From: Thermoleophilia bacterium
GTDB lineage: Bacteria > Actinomycetota > Thermoleophilia > Miltoncostaeales > Miltoncostaeaceae
Length of the DNA: 36,128 nt
Reading direction: 5' to 3'
NCBI GenBank assembly: GCA_025455865.1
Contig: JALOLS010000017.1
Coordinates: 1 to 36,128 of the forward strand
Positions 672 to 11,975 of this stretch are shown in pieces; position 1 is the first letter of the stretch; each line of letters opens with the position of its first letter. The notes beneath the pieces are model-generated. The model searched no databases and was not told the origin of the DNA. It worked only from the letters and a program-made list of their open reading frames with translations. A program made the position numbers and the translations under genes.

Positions 672-1169
672 TCAGGTCGCGGGCGGCTCCGGGGCGGGGG
701 CCCCGTCGTTCGCGAGCCCGACGATCGCGAGCACCCGGGGATCGGCGTGCTCGGCCAGGCGCCGGGCGATCCCGATCAGCACCGCGGACTCCTCGGGGGT
801 GAGCCCCTCGAGGCCCGGTGGCGGCGCCAGGAACGTGTCGCGCAGGCGGAGCTGCGCCCGGCGCCCCGCCGGCGTGAGGACGAGCTCCTTCACCCGGCGG
901 TCGCTCGCGCTCACCCGGCGGCGGGCATAGCCCTGCTCCTCCAGCCGGTCGGCGATCGCGGTCACGTAGCTCGCGTCGCAGTGGAGCTGGCGGGCGAGCC
1001 CGCGCAGGCTCGGCGGCTCGTCCGGGTGCAGGCGCATCAGTGCGAAGGCGTGCTGCGGCTGGAGCCCGAACTCGGCGGCGGCGGCGACGATGGCGTCACG
1101 GCGCGAGAAGACGACCGCGCCGATCAGCGCCCAGGCCCGGCGGATGGTGATCTCCGGCGCCTCGTCCAT
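672..1169 (-). CDS. MarR-family transcriptional regulator
   Basis: A 165-residue winged-helix regulator. The DNA-binding part runs from about residue 54 (SLRGLARQLHCDASYVTAIADR) into the wing (RRVSASDRRVKELVLTPAGR, about 84-103) with the Asp-Arg-Arg wing motif typical of MarR proteins. Flanking helices would form the dimer interface. It is divergent from a DrrAB-type exporter, and a near-perfect 12-bp inverted repeat lies between them, so it most likely represses the exporter and is released by the exported compound. A TACCAT box ends 6 nt before the ATG, so its mRNA is probably leaderless. The inducing ligand cannot be read from sequence. Confidence 0.93.
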   Translation of the reverse strand: MDEAPEITIRRAWALIGAVVFSRRDAIVAAAAEFGLQPQHAFALMRLHPDEPPSLRGLARQLHCDASYVTAIADRLEEQGYARRRVSASDRRVKELVLTPAGRRAQLRLRDTFLAPPPGLEGLTPEESAVLIGIARRLAEHADPRVLAIVGLANDGAPAPEPPAT

Positions 1170-1175
1170 GGCCGG

Positions 1176-1181
1176 ATGGTA
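1176..1181 (-). promoter_or_regulatory. -10 box of the MarR gene (leaderless)
   Basis: On the minus strand TACCAT is followed by 6 nt and then the ATG at 1169. This spacing would put the transcription start at or next to the start codon. No convincing -35 is visible. Confidence 0.45.
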
Positions 1182-1216
1182 TCGGCCGGGACCGGGTACT
1201 TGCCATTCGTCAATCG

Positions 1217-1243
1217 TTGACTATTGTCCTTGACAATGGTCAA
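1217..1243. promoter_or_regulatory. MarR operator in the divergent control region
   Basis: TTGACTATTGTC (1217-1228) and GACAATGGTCAA (1232-1243) form an inverted repeat matching at 11 of 12 positions around a 3-bp centre. This is AT-rich against a very GC-rich background. A second perfect repeat, GTCAA-TCG-TTGAC, overlaps its left side (1209-1221). It sits 22 bp before the ABC ATPase start and 48 bp before the MarR start, the expected place for an autoregulating MarR repressor. A candidate exporter promoter (TTGCCA 1200-1205, 16 bp, TATTGT 1222-1227) has its -10 inside the operator. Confidence 0.75.
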
Positions 1244-1264
1244 CGGTATGGAGGCGGTACGTCG

Positions 1265-2221
1265 ATGAGCGAGGCCGGGGCGGTCGAGGTGCGCGCGCTG
1301 GTCAAGACGTTCGGCACCGTGCGGGCCCTGGACGGGGTGGACTTCCGCGTCGAGCGGGGGACGGTGCTCGGGCTGCTCGGGCCCAACGGCGCCGGCAAGA
1401 CCACGGCGGTCCACGTGCTCGCGACCATCATCACCCCCGACGCGGGTGAGGCCCGGGTGCTCGGGGTCGACGTGGTGGGCGACCCCGACGCGGTGCGCCG
1501 GAGCATCGGCCTGGCCGGGCAGTACGCCGCCGTGGACGGGACGCTGACCGGCCGCGAGAACCTGCGCCTCGTCGGCCGGCTCACCCACCTTCCGCGGCGC
1601 GCCGCGGTCGCCCGGGCCGACGAGCTGCTCGAGCGCTTCGGGCTCACCGACGCGGCCGACCGCATGGCGCGGACCTACTCCGGCGGCATGCGCCGCCGCC
1701 TGGACCTCGCCGCCGCCCTCGTCCACCGCCCGCCGGTGGTGTTCCTGGACGAGCCCACCACCGGCCTCGACCCCTCCAGCCGGAACGACCTGTGGGACAC
1801 GGTGCGCGACCTGGTGCGCGACGGGACCACCGTGCTGCTGACCACGCAGTACCTGGAGGAGGCCGATCAGCTCGCCGACCGCATCGTGGTCATCGACCAC
1901 GGCCGGGTGGTCGCCGAGGGCACCCAGGCCGAGCTCAAGTCGCGCATCGGCACGACGGTGATCGAGCTCAGGATGGCCGACGTCGCGTGCGCGGGGGGCG
2001 CCCGTGAGGTGCTGGAGGCCGCCGGCCTCGGCCCGGTCACCGGCGAGGGCGATGCGCTGCGCCTGAGCGCCCCCGACGGCGGTCGCGCCCTGCTGCAGGC
2101 GATGCGGGCGCTGGACGCCCGCGGGCTGGAGCCCGCGAGCGCCGCGGTGCACGAGCCGTCCCTGGACGATGTGTTCCTCGCCCTGACCACGCCGGGCGAG
2201 CCCGGGGCGGTGCCGGCATGA
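1265..2221 (+). CDS. DrrA-type drug-export ABC ATPase
   Basis: A 318-residue ATP-binding subunit of an ABC-2 exporter. Visible motifs are Walker A GPNGAGKTT (39-47), Q-loop near GLAGQY, signature YSGGM (138-142), Walker B with VVFLDEPTTGLD (158-169) and LLTTQYLEEADQLADR, in which the usual switch His is Gln, as is common in the daunorubicin-resistance DrrA group. The start is ATG 1265, with GGAGG at 1250-1254; a longer frame beginning with TTG at 1217 would run through the MarR operator and has no ribosome binding site. Its stop overlaps the permease start as ATGA, so the two are translationally coupled. Substrate unknown; likely a hydrophobic toxic compound sensed by the divergent MarR protein. 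Confidence 0.94.
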   Translation: MSEAGAVEVRALVKTFGTVRALDGVDFRVERGTVLGLLGPNGAGKTTAVHVLATIITPDAGEARVLGVDVVGDPDAVRRSIGLAGQYAAVDGTLTGRENLRLVGRLTHLPRRAAVARADELLERFGLTDAADRMARTYSGGMRRRLDLAAALVHRPPVVFLDEPTTGLDPSSRNDLWDTVRDLVRDGTTVLLTTQYLEEADQLADRIVVIDHGRVVAEGTQAELKSRIGTTVIELRMADVACAGGAREVLEAAGLGPVTGEGDALRLSAPDGGRALLQAMRALDARGLEPASAAVHEPSLDDVFLALTTPGEPGAVPA

Positions 2222-3036
2222 CCACCCTCGGCCCGCCCGACTCCAGCGCGCCGCGCGGGGCGGCCTCCCGGGTCGCCTGGGCCTTCCGGGACGGGATGGC
2301 GATGACCGGGCGCAACCTGATCACGCTGCGGCGCACCCCGCAGCTCCTGGTCTTCGCGACGATCCAGCCGCTGCTGTTCGTCCTGATGTTCCGCTACGTG
2401 TTCGGCGGCTCCATCCAGGTGCCGGGCTTCGACTACGTGAACTACCTGATGCCCGGGATCTTCGCGCAGGTCGTGGCCTTCGGCGCCGTGCAGACCGGGG
2501 TCGGGCTGGCCGAGGACCAGCGCACCGGGTTCATCCAGCGCCTGCGGTCGCTGCCCATGTCCCGGTCGGCCGTGCTGGCGGGCCGCACCACCGCCGACCT
2601 CGCCCGCAACCTGTTCGTGGTCGCCCTCATGGTGGGCGTGGGCTTCGCGGTCGGCTTCTCGGTGCAGACCAACGCGGCGAAGTTCGGGCTGGCGCTGGTG
2701 GTGCTGCTCGCGTTCGGCTTCGCGTTCAGCTGGGTGTTCGCGTTCATCGGCCTCTCGGTGCCGAACGCCGAGAGCGCCCAGGCGGCGAGCTTCCCGATCA
2801 TCCTGGTGATGGTGTTCGTGTCCAGCGCGTTCGTGCTGACCGAGAACATGCCGTCGTGGCTCCAGCCGTTCGCCGAGCACCAGCCGGTGACCGCCACGGT
2901 CGGCGCCGTCCGGGCGCTGAGCCAGGGCGGCCCCTGGGTGGCCGACACGCTGGCCTCGCTGGCCTGGACGGCCGCGATCCTCGCGGTCTTCGTGCCCCTC
3001 GCGGTCTGGCGCTACCGCCGGAGCCAGACGGGCTGA
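2218..3036 (+). CDS. DrrB-type ABC-2 permease
   Basis: A 272-residue integral membrane subunit partnering the ATPase encoded just upstream. After a cytoplasmic N-terminus with the coupling-helix region (MAMTGRNLITLRRTPQLL, about 24-41) come about six hydrophobic segments, the last near residues 245-262, followed by a basic tail (WRYRRSQTG). The central YLMPGIFAQ block is typical of DrrB/ABC-2 permeases. Its ATG overlaps the ATPase stop by 4 nt, implying equal synthesis of the two subunits. A perfect hairpin follows the stop. The pair probably assembles as a two-plus-two exporter in the plasma membrane. Confidence 0.92.
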   Translation: MTTLGPPDSSAPRGAASRVAWAFRDGMAMTGRNLITLRRTPQLLVFATIQPLLFVLMFRYVFGGSIQVPGFDYVNYLMPGIFAQVVAFGAVQTGVGLAEDQRTGFIQRLRSLPMSRSAVLAGRTTADLARNLFVVALMVGVGFAVGFSVQTNAAKFGLALVVLLAFGFAFSWVFAFIGLSVPNAESAQAASFPIILVMVFVSSAFVLTENMPSWLQPFAEHQPVTATVGAVRALSQGGPWVADTLASLAWTAAILAVFVPLAVWRYRRSQTG

Positions 3037-4788: not shown

Positions 4789-5229
4789 TCAGTCGCGGCA
4801 CCCCGCCCGGAGCCGGTCGATCTGGCCCATGAGCCCCCCGCCGGGCGGATTGCGCACGTCGAGCGAGACCACGAGGCCGTCCCGGGCGCGGGCGGTGAAG
4901 GGCTCCGGCGGGAGCGCGATGCGGCAGCCGCTCGCCGGCAGGTCGATCCCGGCCGCCGGGATGACCAGCCGCCCGGTGTGGCGGGCCCGCACGTTGAACA
5001 CCCCGTCGGCCTCATCGCCCCGGTCCCGCAGCCCGGTGATGCCGTGATCGAGGTCCGAGAACGCCGCGAGGAGGCCCGCGTAGGCCGCGAGCCACGCGTC
5101 GGGCCCGAGCGGCTCGGGGTGGACGCGGCTGGTGTGGGCGAAGTCCTCCGCGAGCAGGTGCCGCCCGCCCGCCACGTCGGCGCCGTCGATGCGGCGAAAG
5201 AGCGTGATGACGAGGTCGGCGGCGGTCAT
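4789..5229 (-). CDS. NTF2/SnoaL-like protein, last gene of the oxidase operon
   Basis: A 146-residue cytoplasmic protein with the size and layout of the NTF2-like/SnoaL fold: an N-terminal helix pair (TAADLVITLFRRIDGADVAGGRHLLAEDFAHTSR), a helix around LGPDAWLAAYAGLLAAFSDLDH, then alternating strands (VFNVRARHTGRLVI, CRIALPPEPFTARARDGLVVSLDV). Members act as polyketide cyclases, isomerases, hydrolases or binding proteins; specific catalytic residues cannot be assigned here. Its ATG overlaps the MFS stop as ATGA, so it is translated with the upstream oxidase, ATP-grasp and exporter genes and probably handles the same small molecule. A longer reading of the frame up to 5727 is the antisense-free shadow of the MFS gene and was not used. 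Confidence 0.75.
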   Translation of the reverse strand: MTAADLVITLFRRIDGADVAGGRHLLAEDFAHTSRVHPEPLGPDAWLAAYAGLLAAFSDLDHGITGLRDRGDEADGVFNVRARHTGRLVIPAAGIDLPASGCRIALPPEPFTARARDGLVVSLDVRNPPGGGLMGQIDRLRAGCRD

Positions 5230-6809
5230 GCGGGGGCCTCCTGGGGACGGGGGACGGCGTCGGCGCGGGGCAGGCGCCGCGTGAGCGCCGCCCCGGCCAG
5301 GGCGAGCGCGGCGGCCAGGGCGAGCGCCCAGCGGGCGCCGGACAGCAGGCGGTCGTCGACCGCCGTGACGAGTGGCGCGGTGGCCGGGTCGTCCCGCAGG
5401 GCGGCCAGCGTGTCCTGGCGGCGGCCCGAGGAGTCGGCGCCGGGGCCGGTCGAGAAGTGCAGGGCCTGCTCGACCACCTGCCGCTGGGCGGGGTCGAGGT
5501 CGTAGCGGTCCAGCAGCCCGTCGCCGCCGCCGCTCGACACGGTGACCAGCAGGCCGACCATGAGCGCGGTCGCCATCGCGCCGGCGGCCAGCCGCAGGGT
5601 CGACGCCACCCCGCCCGAGAGCGAGGCGAGGTCGGCGGGGACGTCGGCGAACGTGAGGTTGGTGAGCGCCGAGAACGACGCGCCGTAGGCCGCCCCGTAG
5701 GGCACGAGCACCGGGACCAGGGGCCACGGCGATCCGGTCGCCCCGAGCAGCGGGATCGTCGCGGCGAGCAGGATCGGCTGGGCCGCGAGGCCCCAGGTCG
5801 CCACCCGCCGCCGCCCGAGCCGGTCGATGACCGGGCTCGCCCCCAGGCCCCCGACGAGCATCCCGGTGCCGAGCGCCATCAGGGTGAGGCCCGCCTCCAG
5901 CGCGCTCCCGCCGAGGACGAACTGCACGACGATCGGGAGGGTGAGCAGCACGCCGTAGAGCGCCATGCTCATCAGCGCGCTGGCCGCGACGGCCGTGCGG
6001 AAGCTGCGCACGCCGGCCAGGCGCGCGTCGACCAGCACCGGGGCGCCCCGGCGGGTGCGGCGCGCCTCGACCGGGCCGAAGGCGGCGAGGGCGGCCACCC
6101 CGAGCAGGAGCATCACGGCGATCGCGGGCGTGGTCCAGCCCCGGCCCGGGCCCTCCTGCAGCCCGAACACCACGCCGCCGATGCCCAGCCCGGCGAGCGC
6201 GGCCCCGGGCCAGTCGATGCCCCCCCGCGCGCCCCGCGACTCGGGCAGCAGGCGCGTGACGCCGGCGGCCGCGGCCAGGCAGAGGGGGATGTTCACGAAG
6301 AAGGCGACCCGCCAGGACGCGGCGTCGGCGAGCAGGCCGCCGAGGAACGGCCCGATCGCCACCCCCGAGCCGGACACCGTCGCCCAGAGCGAGAACACCA
6401 CCGTGCGCTCCCGGCCCGCCGGGAACATGCTGTTGAGCATCCCGACCGTGGCCGGGGCGATGGTCGCGAGCACCAGGCCCTGGATCGCGCGGCCGGCGAG
6501 CAGCGTGGGCATGCCCGTCGCCAGTCCGGTCAGCAGGCTGCCGGCCGCGAACACCACCAGGGCGCTCGCGCAGGTGCGCCGACGGCCCCAGGCGTCGGCC
6601 AGCCGCCCCATCGGGACGAAGGCCACGGCCGCCACGACCGTGAACACGGTGATGGTCAGCGAGGCCTCGTCGACCCCCACGCCCAGGTCGCGCACGATGT
6701 CCGGGAGCACCACCGCGGTGATGGTCTGGTCCATCACCACCACCAGCATCCCCAGGAGCAGGAACGCGACCCCGGGCCCGCGGCCGCGCCCCCGCCCCGG
6801 GTCAGTCAT
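5226..6809 (-). CDS. MFS drug/metabolite exporter, DHA2 (EmrB/QacA) type
   Basis: A 527-residue membrane transporter with about 14 hydrophobic segments, the topology of the DHA2 family of proton-driven exporters. The first helix holds LLLGMLVVVMDQTITAVVLPDI, the family's typical TM1 with a membrane Asp, and the TM2-3 loop has the MFS motif A (GRLADAWGRRRT, about 68-79). The extended C-terminal periplasmic loop and last helix pair are also typical. Its ATG lies inside the last codons of the ATP-grasp gene (overlap ATGACTGA) and its stop overlaps the NTF2-like start. In this operon it most likely exports the product, or an intermediate, of the oxidase and ligase. Confidence 0.9.
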   Translation of the reverse strand: MTDPGRGRGRGPGVAFLLLGMLVVVMDQTITAVVLPDIVRDLGVGVDEASLTITVFTVVAAVAFVPMGRLADAWGRRRTCASALVVFAAGSLLTGLATGMPTLLAGRAIQGLVLATIAPATVGMLNSMFPAGRERTVVFSLWATVSGSGVAIGPFLGGLLADAASWRVAFFVNIPLCLAAAAGVTRLLPESRGARGGIDWPGAALAGLGIGGVVFGLQEGPGRGWTTPAIAVMLLLGVAALAAFGPVEARRTRRGAPVLVDARLAGVRSFRTAVAASALMSMALYGVLLTLPIVVQFVLGGSALEAGLTLMALGTGMLVGGLGASPVIDRLGRRRVATWGLAAQPILLAATIPLLGATGSPWPLVPVLVPYGAAYGASFSALTNLTFADVPADLASLSGGVASTLRLAAGAMATALMVGLLVTVSSGGGDGLLDRYDLDPAQRQVVEQALHFSTGPGADSSGRRQDTLAALRDDPATAPLVTAVDDRLLSGARWALALAAALALAGAALTRRLPRADAVPRPQEAPA

Positions 6810-8112
6810 CGACGATGAACGCCGGCGTGGCCGTGGCCCCCGAGGTCACGTTGGCCACCCCGCCGGCCGAGAGCCGGGTCAGGACGCCGCCGAGCTCCCC
6901 GAGGAACAGGTAGGGATCGGTGCTCTCGTGGTAGTCGCGCCGCTCGGCCGGGTCCTCCAGGCCGGGGTAGGCGACCGGGGGCGGCAGGGGCACCGCCTCC
7001 TGGGCGACCCACTCACCCTCCAGGGCCTCATCGAGCGCGCGGTCCCACTCATGAGCGGAGAGCTCCCAGCCCAGGTGGACGCCCCGCCCCCCGTAGTCGT
7101 GGTTCGGCTTGAGCACGAGGTGCTCGCGCCCCGAGCGCAGGTGGGCGAGCAGGTCCACCCGGCCACCGTCGGGAGCGGTGGCCGTCCCCTCACGCACCAG
7201 GCGCGTCCAGGGCACCGAGCGGCGGACGGCCGCGCGTGCCGGGGGCGACAGCCCGAGGTCGCGCGCCGGGTCGGTGAGCAGGGCGAAGATGGCCTTGCGG
7301 TCCAGCAGGGAGTTGCGGATGGGATCCAGCACGGCCACCGCCCCCGCGGCGGCGGCCTGCACGAGCGTGCGGCACTCGTCGGGCCGGGCGACCATGTCGG
7401 CGGTGGTCAGCCGCCGGTAGACCAGGTCGATCCGGCGGCCGCGGTGGGACAGGACCCCGTCGGCCAGGTCCAGGTCACGCGGATCGGCGATGAACGCCTC
7501 GATCCCCTCGGCCTCGAGCCAGGCGGCGAGGATCTCGAACTCGGTCTGCAGGCCCTCGCCGGCCCAGTCCACCACGGCGACCACCGGGTCGCCGATCCCG
7601 CCGGAGCTCGTCCACGCCGCGCGCAGCGAGCGCACCACCTGCCCGCGCAGGTCGAAGCGGCGAAGGCCCATGGTGCGGAGCACCTCGGCGTGCATGGGGG
7701 TGGCGGCGAACGCCTCGGCGCTCTCGTGGATGAGCTCCACCCCGCCGGGGACCGCGCCGTTCAGCTCGAAGAACCGGACCCGCCCGCCCGAGAACGAGGC
7801 GTCCAGGCGCACCGACACATCAGCCCGGCGCAGCCGCGGGGTGATCTCGAGCAGCTCCTGCTCGAACGGCGTGAAGGTGCCGACCTCCTCGAGCAGGGAC
7901 CGGTCCTCCAGCACCATCCGCTCGGCCCGGGCGAGGGCCGACATGACCAGCACGCTCACCGCCCCGAGCTGGGCGATCCCGGACGCGCTCAGGAAGCGGG
8001 GGCGGGCGACCGAGAAGAACGGGCGCCCGCCGTAGGTGAGCCCGCGGGCCGCGAGCTCGTCGCCGAGCGCCCGGGCCGCCTGCGGGGTGATCGCCGCGTC
8101 CCACGCCCGCAC
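6802..8112 (-). CDS. Circularly permuted ATP-grasp ligase-like protein
   Basis: About 436 residues from the GTG at 8112. The C-terminal third contains the ATP-binding block VLKPNHDYGGRGVHLGWE and a glycine/acid-rich end; upstream are FFELNGAVPGGVELIHES and VYRRLTTADMVARPDEC followed by NSLLDRKAIFALLTDP and PWTRLV, an arrangement I recognise from uncharacterised permuted ATP-grasp proteins related to glutathionylspermidine synthase. Such enzymes activate a carboxylate as acyl phosphate and join it to an amine or thiol. The frame is open further upstream, and a CTG at 8142 overlapping the oxidase stop (CTGA) with GAGGTGG before it is an alternative start. Lying between an amino acid oxidase and an exporter, it probably forms an amide of an amino-acid-derived acid. 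Substrates unknown. Confidence 0.8.
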   Translation of the reverse strand: MRAWDAAITPQAARALGDELAARGLTYGGRPFFSVARPRFLSASGIAQLGAVSVLVMSALARAERMVLEDRSLLEEVGTFTPFEQELLEITPRLRRADVSVRLDASFSGGRVRFFELNGAVPGGVELIHESAEAFAATPMHAEVLRTMGLRRFDLRGQVVRSLRAAWTSSGGIGDPVVAVVDWAGEGLQTEFEILAAWLEAEGIEAFIADPRDLDLADGVLSHRGRRIDLVYRRLTTADMVARPDECRTLVQAAAAGAVAVLDPIRNSLLDRKAIFALLTDPARDLGLSPPARAAVRRSVPWTRLVREGTATAPDGGRVDLLAHLRSGREHLVLKPNHDYGGRGVHLGWELSAHEWDRALDEALEGEWVAQEAVPLPPPVAYPGLEDPAERRDYHESTDPYLFLGELGGVLTRLSAGGVANVTSGATATPAFIVDD

Positions 8113-8138
8113 CGCGGCCGCGACGACGGGGTCGGGGT

Positions 8139-9674
8139 TCAGGGGTCCACCTCGGCGCCGGGCGGCGCCCAGGCCGGCGGCGGCTGGGCGAGCTGGTCCT
8201 GCAGCACCCGCTCGGCGGAGGAGAGCGCCCCCAGGATCCAGCCCTGGTGGGCGCTGAAGGCCTCGCCGCAGACCGCCACGTTCACCCCGGGCGCGGGCCG
8301 GCGCACCCGGGGCATGACGTCCACCGAGAGGTGGCCGGTGCGCCAGTAGTGCCAGCCGCCCCCGAACGGCGGCTCGGTCCAGTCCCGGAAGGCCGCCCAC
8401 CCGGGCTCCGGCACGTCGACCCCGTGCAGCTCGGCGAGCTGACGGCGGGCGTCGGCGACCATGCCGGTGGGGGCGGGCAGGGCGGGGTCGGCGGCGGGCC
8501 AGGCCGGGCCGCCCGCGTCGCGCAGTGCCTGCCAGTACCCGGTCGCCCGGTCGTCGGTGTAGGTGGCGGCGAGCAGCGCGCTGCGGTTGCCGGCCTCGCC
8601 GCCGGCCGCCTCGTCCTCGACGCCGAAGTACAGGCACTGGCGCATGGGCAGGTCGGTCACCGACTTCCCGGTCATGATGCCGAGCCGCTCCCACCAGGGC
8701 TCGGGGAAGCCCAGGTAGAGCTTGGCCGCCGGCACCGCGAGCACCGCGTCCAGGTCGGCCGCGAGCGTGCTCCCGGCCAGCGGCCCGGTGGACAGGTCGA
8801 GCGCGGCGAGCGCGGCCCGGGGGAGCGCGAGCACCACGTGACGGGCGACGACCGGGTCCGCCCCGTCCGTCGCCACCCGGAGCAGGCCGTCGGGGCCGTG
8901 GTCCACGGCCAGGGCCCGCACCCCGCGCCGGATCTCGGCCCCGGCCTCGGCGGCGGCCGCGGCGAGGGCGTCCGGCAGGGCCTGCATCCCGTCGGTGAGG
9001 GTGCGCGGGCGCCCGACCGAGTAGTCGGTGTGCAGGACGTTGACCGCGCCCACCTCGGGGTCGCGGCCCACGGTGTAGCCGAGGCCGTCCATGACGTACT
9101 CGAAGCCCTCGGGGGAGAGCACCTGCCGGGCCACCTCGACCATCGCGACGTCGCGCACCGGGCGGCCGCCGAACACCAGGTCGCGCTCACGGGCCCGGCG
9201 GGCGGCCGCGTCGATGGTGGCGATGTCGGGGACCAGCGCGCGCACCACCGTCCCCATGAGCTCCTGGGGGGTGTGGCCCCGCTCGGCCGGGGCGAGGTCG
9301 TAGGGCACCGCGGCGCCGGCGCGCAGGTCGGCCACCGTGAACCGCGAGCCGCGCAGCAGGTGCAGGTCGTGGTCGTCCAGCATCGTGAAGTCGCGGTGGG
9401 CCAGGCCGAGCGCGGCGATGAGCGCCACCACCAGGCGCTGGCTGTCCAGGTAGCGCATCCCGCCGATCTCGGCGCGCAGGTGGGGCGCCCCGGGGGGCCG
9501 GACGGTGTGCAGCCGCCCGCCGGTGCGCCCGTCGGACTCGAGGACCACCACCGACGGGGCCCCGGCGGCGCCCGGCACGGCCGCGCGCCGGGTCCGGAGC
9601 GACCAGGCGAGGTAGAGGCCGGCGACGCCGCCGCCCACCACGGCCACGTCCACGGGGTCGGTCACGGGGTCCAC
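8139..9674 (-). CDS. FAD-dependent L-amino-acid-oxidase-like amine oxidase
   Basis: A 511-residue flavoenzyme. The N-terminus carries the dinucleotide-binding motif DVAVVGGGVAGLYLAW (G14-G19), followed by the FAD-contact VLESDGRTGGRLHTVR and EIGGMRYL, whose Gly-Gly-Met-Arg-Tyr resembles the active-site arginine block of L-amino acid oxidases. The C-terminal FAD motif is GEAFSAHQGWILGALSSAERVL. It should oxidise an amino acid or amine to an imine/keto acid with release of ammonia and peroxide. No signal peptide, so cytoplasmic. The start at GTG 9674 is supported by a TAGTCT box 7 nt upstream, making the mRNA leaderless. First gene of the operon with ATP-grasp, MFS and NTF2-like genes, and divergent from an amino acid permease that could supply the substrate. 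Confidence 0.87.
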   Translation of the reverse strand: MDPVTDPVDVAVVGGGVAGLYLAWSLRTRRAAVPGAAGAPSVVVLESDGRTGGRLHTVRPPGAPHLRAEIGGMRYLDSQRLVVALIAALGLAHRDFTMLDDHDLHLLRGSRFTVADLRAGAAVPYDLAPAERGHTPQELMGTVVRALVPDIATIDAAARRARERDLVFGGRPVRDVAMVEVARQVLSPEGFEYVMDGLGYTVGRDPEVGAVNVLHTDYSVGRPRTLTDGMQALPDALAAAAAEAGAEIRRGVRALAVDHGPDGLLRVATDGADPVVARHVVLALPRAALAALDLSTGPLAGSTLAADLDAVLAVPAAKLYLGFPEPWWERLGIMTGKSVTDLPMRQCLYFGVEDEAAGGEAGNRSALLAATYTDDRATGYWQALRDAGGPAWPAADPALPAPTGMVADARRQLAELHGVDVPEPGWAAFRDWTEPPFGGGWHYWRTGHLSVDVMPRVRRPAPGVNVAVCGEAFSAHQGWILGALSSAERVLQDQLAQPPPAWAPPGAEVDP

Positions 9675-9681
9675 GGCGCGC

Positions 9682-9727
9682 AGACTACCGAGTCGCGGTT
9701 TCGGGTCGGGACGCCCCTCTGTAGGGT
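9682..9727. promoter_or_regulatory. Back-to-back leaderless promoters of the oxidase operon and permease
   Basis: Minus strand: TAGTCT (9687-9682) is followed by 7 nt and the oxidase GTG at 9674. Plus strand: TAGGGT (9722-9727) is followed by 6 nt and the permease ATG at 9734. Both imply transcripts that begin at or beside the start codon. The 59-bp gap has no obvious palindrome, so the control protein, if any, is not visible here. Confidence 0.55.
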
Positions 9728-9733
9728 GCCGCG

Positions 9734-11197
9734 ATGCCGGGGGACCCAGCATTCGAGCGCCGCCTGGGGCACGCGCTCGGCGGGGAGGAGCTCACCCGGA
9801 CGCTCGGCCCCCTGGCGCTCACCGGCATCGGGGTGGCGACCATCGTCGGCACCGGGGTGTTCGTCCTGACCGGCGAGGCGGCCGCCGAGGACGCCGGCCC
9901 GGCCGTGGCGGTCAGCTTCGCCCTCGCCGGCCTCGCCGCCCTGTTCGTGGCCCTCTGCTACGCGGAGCTCGCCTCGACGGTGCCCGCGGCCGGGGGCACC
10001 TACTCGCTCGCCTACGTGGTCTTCGGCCCCGGCATCGGCTGGATCGTCGGCTGGTGCCTGCTGTTCGAGTACCTGCTCGGGGCGGCCCTCATCGCGGTGG
10101 GCTGGGGCGGGTACGCCGAGAGCGCCCTGTCGCGGGCGGGCATCGACCTGCCGGACGCCGTCAGCTCATCCGCGTTCGCCGGCGACGGCGGGGTGGCCGA
10201 CGTGCCGGCCGCGCTGGTGATCGCGGCGATGGCGGGCCTGGTGGCCCTCGGCGCGCGGGAGTCGACCCGGGTGAACCTGGTCATGACCGCGGCCAAGGTG
10301 ATCGCGCTCGCGCTGTTCGCCGCGGTCGGGGCGACGGCGATCACCCGGGCCAACTACGACCCGTTCGTCCCCGCCGCGGAGGGCTTCGGGGAGTTCGGCC
10401 TGAGCGGCATCCTGCGCGCGACCGGCCTGGTGTTCCTGGCCTACATCGGCTTCGACGTGATCGCCACCGGCGCGCGGGAGGCCCGCCGGCCCGGGCGCGA
10501 CGTGCCGGTGGCGGTGCTCAGCGCCCTCGGGATCGCGACCCTGCTCTACGTGGCGGTGGCGCTCGTGCTGGTCGGGCTCGTGGACTACCGCGAGCTCGGG
10601 GTCCCGGACCCCCTCTCCGCCGCGCTCGCCGTCCACCCGTCGCTGGGGTGGCTGGAGACGCTGGTGAACCTCGCCGCCGTCGCCGGCCTCGCCGCGGGCG
10701 TGCTGTCGCTCATGTACGGGATGAGCCGGATCTTCATGCAGATGGCCGACGACGCGATGCTCCCGCCGGCCCTCGGCGCGGTCGACCCCCGCCACCGCGC
10801 CCCGCGCCGCGCGATCGGGATGGCCGCATCCATCTCGATCGTCCTCGCCCTGTTCGCCCCGCTGGATGTCCTGGCCGACCTCATCTCGGCCGGGACGCTG
10901 CTGGCCTTCATGACCGTCTGCGCCGGGGTCGTGGTGCTCCGCCGCCGCCGGCCCGGGCTGGAGCGGCCCTTCCGGGTGCCGCTCGGCCCGGTGGTGCCGG
11001 CGCTCGGGATCGTCGCCAGCCTGGTCGTGTTCGTGACCCTCCCCGGCCAGACGCTGCTGCGCCTGGCCGGGTGGATCCTGATCGGCCTCGTGATCTACCT
11101 GACCTACTCACGCCGGCGGGCCGCCGCGCGCCTCGCCGCCGGCGAGGAGGATGCGGTCGCGGGGGAGGCGACGCCGCGCCCTGGTCGCCGTCCGTAG
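9734..11197 (+). CDS. APC-superfamily amino acid permease
   Basis: A 487-residue transporter with about 12 hydrophobic segments. The first helix shows LTGIGVATIVGTGVFVLTGEAA, the unwound Gly-rich substrate-binding helix characteristic of the cationic amino acid transporter branch of the APC superfamily, and the helix 2-3 region has ALCYAELASTVPAAGGTYSLAY. Basic residues at the C-terminus are cytoplasmic. ATG 9734 is 6 nt after TAGGGT, consistent with a leaderless mRNA. Family members import amino acids by proton symport or exchange. Divergent transcription from the amino acid oxidase operon suggests that it takes up the oxidase's substrate; which amino acid cannot be told. Confidence 0.93.
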   Translation: MPGDPAFERRLGHALGGEELTRTLGPLALTGIGVATIVGTGVFVLTGEAAAEDAGPAVAVSFALAGLAALFVALCYAELASTVPAAGGTYSLAYVVFGPGIGWIVGWCLLFEYLLGAALIAVGWGGYAESALSRAGIDLPDAVSSSAFAGDGGVADVPAALVIAAMAGLVALGARESTRVNLVMTAAKVIALALFAAVGATAITRANYDPFVPAAEGFGEFGLSGILRATGLVFLAYIGFDVIATGAREARRPGRDVPVAVLSALGIATLLYVAVALVLVGLVDYRELGVPDPLSAALAVHPSLGWLETLVNLAAVAGLAAGVLSLMYGMSRIFMQMADDAMLPPALGAVDPRHRAPRRAIGMAASISIVLALFAPLDVLADLISAGTLLAFMTVCAGVVVLRRRRPGLERPFRVPLGPVVPALGIVASLVVFVTLPGQTLLRLAGWILIGLVIYLTYSRRRAAARLAAGEEDAVAGEATPRPGRRP

Positions 11198-11220: not shown

Positions 11221-11553
11221 ATGCCCTCCTCGCCGCTCAGCCTGCGCCTGCCCGAGTCCACGATCGGCCGGCTCGGTGACGTCGCCCGCCGCCGCCAGAC
11301 GCCTCCCCGCACGCTTGCCCAGCGGTACGTCGAGGAGGGACTTCGCATGGATGAGCATCCGCTCGTCCGTTTCGCGGACGGCCCGGCCGGGCGACGCGCG
11401 ACCCTCGTCGCCGGGCCGGACGTCTGGGAGGTCGTCGGGATCGTGCGTGACAACGACGGGGACCTCGACGAGGCCGTGGCGTACCTCGAGATCGGGATCG
11501 CGCGCGCGGAGGCGGCGTGGCGGGCGGGTCAGGCGGCGCTTCGCCGCGGGTGA
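11221..11553 (+). CDS. Antitoxin: RHH-like N-terminus plus DUF433-like domain
   Basis: A 110-residue protein in two parts. Residues about 4-45 (LSLRLPESTIGRLGDVARRR...AQRYVEEGLRMDEHP) resemble a ribbon-helix-helix DNA-binding domain. Residues about 46-95 (LVRFADGPAGRRATLVAGPDVWEVVGIVRDNDGDLDEAVAYLEI) match the DUF433 type antitoxin helix-turn-helix. It overlaps the next gene as GTGA, the usual coupling of antitoxin and toxin, and the partner encodes a DUF5615 PIN-like protein. It would bind and inhibit the toxin and repress its own promoter. The gene itself looks intact although its toxin appears broken. It follows the permease stop by 23 bp without a clear promoter. Confidence 0.75.
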   Translation: MPSSPLSLRLPESTIGRLGDVARRRQTPPRTLAQRYVEEGLRMDEHPLVRFADGPAGRRATLVAGPDVWEVVGIVRDNDGDLDEAVAYLEIGIARAEAAWRAGQAALRRG

Positions 11554-11975
11554 GGCTGCTGCTCGACGAGATGCTCGCTCCCGCCATCGCCCGGGGCCTC
11601 CGTGATCGCGGCCATGACGTCCAGGCCGTCCGGGAACGGCCGGATCTGCGGGGCGCGAGCGACCGGCAGGTCTTCGGCATCGCCCAGGTCGAGCGACGAG
11701 CGGTGGTGACGTCGAACGTGCGCGACCTCCGCCCGTTCCAGCACGAGGCGCTCGGGCCCGGTGGGAGCGGTCACCCCGGGGCTCGTGTTCATCCCGGGAC
11801 GGGACCGAGGTGTGGCTCGCCTGACCGGCGCCGGCCCGGGTGGGGTGCCGACGCCGGCCGGTGCCGGAACGCCCTCCGCAGGCGCCGGGATGATACCCGG
11901 CGGCCCGTCCTCGGAGCTCAGGAGCGCGCGGCGAGCGCCCGGCCCAGGTCGTCGGTGCAGGCGAGCTGGACGTAG
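11550..11975 (+). pseudogene. DUF5615 PIN-like toxin, frameshifted
   Basis: From GTG 11550 (overlapping the antitoxin TGA) the frame gives VRLLLDEMLAPAIARGLRDR, then DVQAVRERPDLRGASDRQVF and AVVTSNVRDLRPF, the conserved order of DUF5615 proteins, which have a PIN-like nuclease fold with acidic residues (Asp-Glu near residues 6-7, Asp in NVRD). Normal proteins continue with HPGLVFIPGR-like sequence. Here that stretch is readable only in the frame reached by removing one G from the run at 11778-11781 (CACCCCGGGGCTC). Without the correction the frame continues as Arg/Gly-rich nonsense and runs into the convergent gene at 11918. Either a decayed toxin or a homopolymer sequencing error; beyond about 11830 neither frame looks like the family. 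Confidence 0.65.

Follow-up and report, generated by a model that had tools for sequence, protein, structure and literature searches.

A possible minimal biosynthesis-and-export operon with a permuted ATP-grasp ligase in a Thermoleophilia bacterium

What could a bacterium make with an L-amino-acid oxidase, a circularly permuted ATP-grasp ligase, an exporter of the major facilitator superfamily (MFS) and a SnoaL-like NTF2-fold protein, encoded end to end in one operon opposite an amino acid permease? This question is raised by positions 4,789 to 11,197 of a 36,128-nucleotide stretch of DNA (hereafter, the window; contig JALOLS010000017.1, forward strand) from a Thermoleophilia bacterium of the family Miltoncostaeaceae (GCA_025455865.1; a 3.16-Mb assembly in 186 contigs). 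The initial annotation, made from the sequence alone, proposed that an amino acid is imported and oxidized, that a carboxylate is activated and joined to an amine, and that the product is modified or bound and then exported. It knew of no pathway by name that combines these genes, and none emerged from the literature that we searched. The five gene families that it assigned are borne out by matches to Pfam and curated models. The operon is real, compact and apparently functional, a new combination of known families, and we give about an even chance to the reading that it is a minimal biosynthesis-and-export cluster, independent of non-ribosomal peptide synthetases (NRPS), with an interchangeable flavin oxidase.

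A permuted ATP-grasp ligase and its NTF2-fold partner

The ligase gene (6802..8142, minus strand; 446 amino acids from CTG 8142) was assigned to the circularly permuted ATP-grasp acid-amine ligases by Pfam, an AlphaFold2 model and Foldseek. The Pfam matches are weak but consistent: PF04174 scores 24.8 bits (cut-off 23.1) and PF14403 30.1 bits (cut-off 32), the latter being matched at E ≤0.01 by 31 of 33 ligase homologues. The model, built from a 33-sequence alignment, has a predicted local distance difference test score (pLDDT) of 92.6 and a predicted template modelling score of 0.92. Foldseek matches it to 3n6x, human glutathione synthetase and Cp1B (E 3.6e-14), and VIA-align superimposes it on YgiC, YjfC and GspS (Z ~31-32, 359-372 residues, root-mean-square deviation 3.0-3.3 Å) and on Cp1B (Z 25.6). 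The top matches of both programs, spanning ligase residues 3-447, are all of the glutathione synthetase (GSS)/GspS/YgiC type, with eukaryotic glutathione synthetases also among the best. The catalytic set is present (R114, D116, E128 and N130, conserved in 29, 33, 27 and 30 of the 33 homologues, respectively), as are the ATP-binding lysines K285 (33) and K347 (32). In motif, the four catalytic residues correspond to R139, D141, E163 and N165 of Cp1B, replacement of which abolishes or cuts activity (PMC12568646). Because the permuted fold and the catalytic residues are intact, the gene very probably encodes an active acid-amine ligase, as judged from the model and the alignment.

The closest characterized relatives differ from the window ligase in context. 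Cp1B, from the fungal E-64 pathway (PDB 9cjn; PMC12568646), shares the permuted GSS/GspS fold and the R-x-D...E-x-N catalytic set, and its stand-alone, NRPS-independent formation of a pseudodipeptide with a non-amino-acid acyl partner is the activity to which we liken that of the window ligase. However, Cp1B is fungal, its structural identity to the window ligase is 17-18%, and its partners, an iron/2-oxoglutarate-dependent oxygenase and an ANL amide synthetase, are both absent from the window operon. GspS and Escherichia coli YgiC and YjfC match the structure best and along the greater part of the chain but, at 14-16% identity, the window ligase lacks the amidase domain and is found with an oxidase, an MFS protein and a SnoaL-like protein. 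With identities of 14-18%, substrates cannot be transferred from the characterized enzymes.

Another line of evidence comes from gene neighbourhoods. A pattern-based scan that covered 84,980 species by one genome each, with flanks limited to 10 kb, yielded 80 ligase loci; the compared genomes are mostly metagenome assemblies, and several of the contigs are short. In a quick tree, the window ligase falls in a separate Thermoleophilia clade (Shimodaira-Hasegawa-like approximate likelihood ratio test support 97) together with NTF2-linked and MFS-linked members; its branch is long (1.33), so that its exact position within the clade is uncertain. An MFS exporter adjoins the clade ligases at loci L002/L007, L037/L062, L060, L064 and L038/L069, and lies nearby at L040-L042. 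The window exporter itself (5226..6809, minus strand; 527 amino acids) is a drug-type MFS protein (PF07690, E 2.8e-47), which can be described only as DHA2-like given that its match to TIGR00711 (DHA2 family; E 7e-49) scores 166.9 bits, under the cut-off of 230.2. A second Thermoleophilia ligase subfamily (L043, L045-L049, L172) adjoins a gene for a DUF455 ferritin-like protein. Distant plasmid-borne relatives of the ligase occur in varied contexts, some of them biosynthetic with MFS or MATE exporters, and were not used for the assignment of function.

The NTF2-fold protein (4789..5229, minus strand; 146 amino acids) is SnoaL-like by its match to PF07366 (30.9 bits, cut-off 28.4). Its AlphaFold2 model (pLDDT 90.0) shows the cone-shaped NTF2 fold and is best matched in Foldseek by KstA15, ChaU, IdmH and SnoaL2 (E ~5e-8); these SnoaL-type structural neighbours are enzymes of polyketide biosynthesis. 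A plasmid search with this protein gave no matches. Among 34 other genomes, only three matches were better than E 0.003 (2.6e-16 to 2.9e-13), and each of them touches a ligase homologue, which ties the two proteins together: judged from the sequences, ligase and NTF2 protein are a conserved pair, far from chance.

All three matches come from one genus of Solirubrobacterales, Svornostia, of another family of the class (L040-L042, L058, L070, L121; Svornostia abyssi J379 among them). The gene order is ligase, NTF2 and a flavin mononucleotide (FMN)-dependent oxidase, with the genes overlapping or abutting and an MFS gene close by. The ligase belongs to the same clade as that of the window, the NTF2 protein directly after it is orthologue-like, and the operon again includes a flavin oxidase. 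The differences are that a member of the FMN-dependent alpha-hydroxyacid-oxidase family (PF01070, FMN_dh, E 2.6e-118; closest models L-lactate oxidase and MftD) replaces the flavin adenine dinucleotide (FAD)-dependent oxidase of the window, that the MFS gene is on the opposite strand and that there is no permease. No description of this cluster was found in the literature searched. In the complete genome of S. abyssi J379, the ligase gene (L042/L121, G259:C1:3392700-3394035) is split over two overlapping frames, whether by a frameshift or by a sequencing error; in two related assemblies it is intact.

Operon layout and promoter region

On the minus strand, the genes follow each other in the order oxidase, ligase, MFS, NTF2, and neighbouring genes abut or overlap, with the end-to-start junctions as the initial annotation had described them. 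The oxidase/ligase junction is CTGA, where the oxidase TGA meets the ligase start, with GAGGTGG just upstream, within the last codons of the oxidase; the ligase and MFS genes overlap by ATGACTGA, and the MFS and NTF2 genes by ATGA, with a strong AGGAGG upstream. From these overlaps, the four genes are probably co-translated. Third-position GC content is 0.96-0.99 in all five reading frames, which is of the coding type (the window overall is 77% GC). An intrinsic terminator was looked for downstream of the operon and not found.

Two start codons required attention. The ligase has no ATG, GTG or TTG at its overlap with the oxidase; homologues align from CTG 8142-8140, which is probably the start, GTG 8112 being the alternative. 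A tRNA-Gly (CCC) called by ARAGORN at 7116-7207 on the minus strand lies wholly within the ligase coding sequence, on its coding strand, and is probably a chance fold in GC-rich coding DNA. For the oxidase, the initial annotation used ATG 9752, which falls inside the divergent open reading frame of the permease (ATG 9734). Since an oxidase frame beginning there would overlap that of the permease, this start is unlikely, and GTG 9674 is probably the correct one.

The permease (9734..11197, plus strand, and thus transcribed divergently as first annotated) is an APC-family amino acid permease (PF13520, E 2e-52), closest to BcaP (NF053761; 432 bits, below the equivalog cut-off of 690); its presence next to ligase homologues is not conserved at the 80 named loci. 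The 59 bp that separate it from the oxidase (9675..9733) contain two facing TANNNT boxes, TAGGGT 6 nt upstream of the permease ATG 9734 and TAGTCT 7 nt upstream of the oxidase GTG 9674. The window holds 18 such boxes in all (6 on the plus and 12 on the minus strand), and they precede 6 of the 106 candidate in-frame starts by 4-8 nt, where we estimate ~0.1 to be expected from the frequency of the motif. As the boxes are rare yet placed just before starts, we infer two leaderless transcripts, so that the permease and the operon are probably both transcribed from the shared 59-bp region. Such an arrangement supports co-regulation of the two without proving it. The six boxes across the window suggest widespread leaderless transcription in this organism.

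The flavin oxidase

The oxidase (8139..9674, minus strand; 511 amino acids from GTG 9674) is an FAD-dependent L-amino-acid oxidase (PF01593, E 2.6e-35). Its closest structures in the PDB are the L-arginine oxidase PT-AROD (8t8a, E 1.2e-72), HTAncLAAO2 (8jhe, E 4e-61) and the ancestral L-lysine oxidase AncLLysO (7eih, E 5e-58), members of the same family that likewise have GGMR and the active-site Lys (PMC11694665, PMC10517122, PMC8405998). In alignments, the window enzyme keeps the FAD-binding motif GGGVAG, the substrate-carboxylate motif GGMR and the active-site Lys, K318 being invariant. The sites that select the side chain are Gln350 in PT-AROD, equivalent to Glu383 in AncLLysO, and Glu493, equivalent to Ala518 (PMC11694665), whereas the window enzyme aligns Val314 and Tyr443 at these positions (511-amino-acid numbering). 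Because these residues replace the selecting ones, arginine and lysine are unlikely substrates; we rejected both identities, and the enzyme is probably neither an arginine nor a lysine oxidase. Our guess is that it acts on a hydrophobic or aromatic amino acid. A VioA-like tryptophan oxidase was also considered and rejected (51.5 bits against a cut-off of 600).

Besides the window, close relatives of the oxidase are rare, being present in 2 of 399 genomes of the class (E ≤1e-60) and 2 of 396 genomes of the phylum sample (E ≤1e-50), and none of these four (L138-L141) has a ligase, MFS or NTF2 gene beside it; in a plasmid search, all matches were partial and none was reported with a ligase as partner. 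Conversely, none of the 80 named ligase loci has an L-amino-acid oxidase beside the ligase. Across all loci examined, the two occur together only in the window itself, including retrieved duplicates of it. Because the ligase homologues are consistently without this oxidase elsewhere, it is a local recruit that varies the oxidative step. Thus, of the conserved neighbourhood that the initial annotation had suggested looking for, the ligase-NTF2 pair and recurring exporters were found and the oxidase beside the ligase was not; homologues of the ligase are consistently without the oxidase, but not consistently without an exporter, which is half of what would have spoken against the initial proposal.

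Given this distribution, the oxidase might merely share a transcript with a pathway made up of the ligase, the NTF2 protein and the exporter, for example releasing ammonium or H2O2 from imported amino acids, and not feed the ligase at all. The presence of the oxidase beside the ligase in the window alone, the four relatives lacking any of the other genes, and the permease, which with its shared promoter region would be a natural partner of the oxidase, all speak for this. However, the CTGA junction is tight, with the putative Shine-Dalgarno sequence of the ligase inside the last codons of the oxidase, and a flavin oxidase comes after the ligase-NTF2 pair in Svornostia as well, which would hardly be expected by chance were oxidation irrelevant. 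On balance, we consider a mere sharing of the transcript rather unlikely.

A proposed pathway and its alternatives

Under the favoured reading of the operon as a biosynthesis-and-export cluster, the flavin oxidase, by its family and active-site motifs, would deaminate an L-amino acid to a 2-imino or 2-oxo acid. The ligase, which has the fold and the catalytic residues for it, would phosphorylate a carboxylate, plausibly that of the 2-oxo acid made by the oxidase, and couple the activated acid (2-oxo or derived) to an amine, for example an amino acid or a polyamine. The NTF2 protein, by its fold and its conserved pairing with the ligase, might be a cyclase or a gatekeeper that acts on or steers the labile product of the ligation. 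The MFS protein, by family and recurrence, would export the product, and the divergent permease, by family and the shared promoter region, may bring in the amino acid. In this scheme, we infer the order of the steps, the product, the direction of transport, the role of the permease and the substrates.

The conserved kernel would then comprise the ligase, the NTF2 protein and a flavin oxidase, either the L-amino-acid oxidase of the window or the enzyme of the FMN-dependent alpha-hydroxyacid-oxidase family in Svornostia. Although the two families are unrelated, members of each can produce a 2-oxo acid; therefore, such an acid (or its imino counterpart) is the simplest common acyl substrate and the one that we prefer, and the swap of flavin oxidases around a common kernel is a direct clue to it. 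A more specific proposal can be advanced only tentatively: that a GspS-like ligase and a dedicated SnoaL-like gatekeeper combine an amine with a 2-oxo or 2-imino acid, made by interchangeable flavin oxidases (the FAD-dependent amino-acid or the FMN-dependent alpha-hydroxyacid type), to give a 2-oxoacyl amide that is exported and may be cyclized, as an undescribed kind of Thermoleophilia mini-cluster.

Of the logic first proposed for the operon, the ligase fold and residues, the conserved ligase-NTF2 pair and the recurrent MFS genes lend support to coupling and export, and the oxidase has proved to be local. Several observations count against the reading as a whole. The oxidase-ligase pairing is known from a single genome, so that the two enzymes might act on different substrates. 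MFS genes, for their part, are common. The Svornostia FMN enzyme scores under every equivalog cut-off, and 'alpha-hydroxyacid oxidase' is accordingly a family-level description. In G247, but in neither G327 nor G259, the MFS protein of the Svornostia cluster is the best match to that of the window genome-wide, and orthology of the exporters is therefore not established.

Finally, in many Acidobacteriota, Gemmatimonadota and Chloroflexota, the ligase homologue has a YbdK-type GCS2 carboxylate-amine ligase as its neighbour, in some cases joined by a RimK-like ATP-grasp protein and a C26 gamma-glutamyl hydrolase, from which it follows that the ligase family has more than one role. This context, along with the nearest folds being YgiC, YjfC and GspS, favours another explanation, namely, that the product of the window ligase, like those of these fold relatives, is a conjugate of the glutathione, gamma-glutamyl or polyamine type, a redox or stress metabolite and not a secreted natural product. 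Yet, the window operon contains no YbdK-type GCS2, RimK-like or C26 gene, and its clade pairs instead with exporters and NTF2 proteins; we regard such a conjugate as improbable. Clusters with varying subsets of GCS2, RimK-like, C26 and permuted ATP-grasp genes (L059, L061, L074-L077, L088, L093, L099, L166) apparently represent a widespread peptide-like metabolite system in their own right.

Still less probable, in our assessment, is a defensive or catabolic module in which the permease and the oxidase together use up amino acids, giving off H2O2, the MFS protein expels drugs and the ligase modifies, and so inactivates, an acid or amine that is toxic. The exporter does match multidrug and antibiotic exporters, and both a MarR-like gene and the genes of a Drr-like ABC exporter lie nearby, but those genes have no link to the operon, and the MFS and ligase genes appear to be translationally coupled with that for the SnoaL-like protein, for which the closest solved structures are those of biosynthetic enzymes.

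Relation to other pathways and implications

The indolmycin pathway reportedly employs an amino-acid oxidase (Ind4), an ATP-dependent ligase (Ind3) and a DUF4440 gatekeeper (Ind6). It is a precedent by analogy only, in that an amino acid is oxidized, an acid is coupled to an amine at the expense of ATP and a helper with the NTF2 fold directs the outcome, and we claim no homology: Ind3 is phenylacetate-CoA-ligase-like and Ind4 depends on pyridoxal phosphate, whereas the window ligase is an ATP-grasp enzyme and the oxidase depends on FAD. The scleric acid cluster (PMC6335953, PMC13307308), which also serves a small molecule, resembles the operon in that the coupling enzyme, SclG, is of the ATP-grasp type and the gene for an MFS exporter, SclE, adjoins it but, unlike the operon, needs an NRPS, an acyl carrier protein and benzoate genes.

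NRPS-free clusters built on stand-alone ATP-grasp ligases are easily overlooked by genome-mining tools. Such ligases are sought after as amide-forming biocatalysts, and, to our knowledge, few natural products have been characterized from Thermoleophilia. If the favoured reading is correct, genomes could be searched with the ligase-NTF2 pair as the signature of a small group of metabolites that Thermoleophilia export; if only the core of ligase, NTF2 protein and exporter holds, this core remains a conserved unit.

Neighbouring genes

Two further groups of genes flank the locus. Directly after the permease, the plus strand encodes a small protein and then a DUF5615/PIN-like protein (11222-11975; PF18480, E 2.6e-11), which together resemble a toxin-antitoxin pair. 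On the other side of the operon, positions 672-3036 include the MarR-like regulator and the two-gene Drr-like ABC exporter, recognized by eye, which could be a separate drug-resistance unit.

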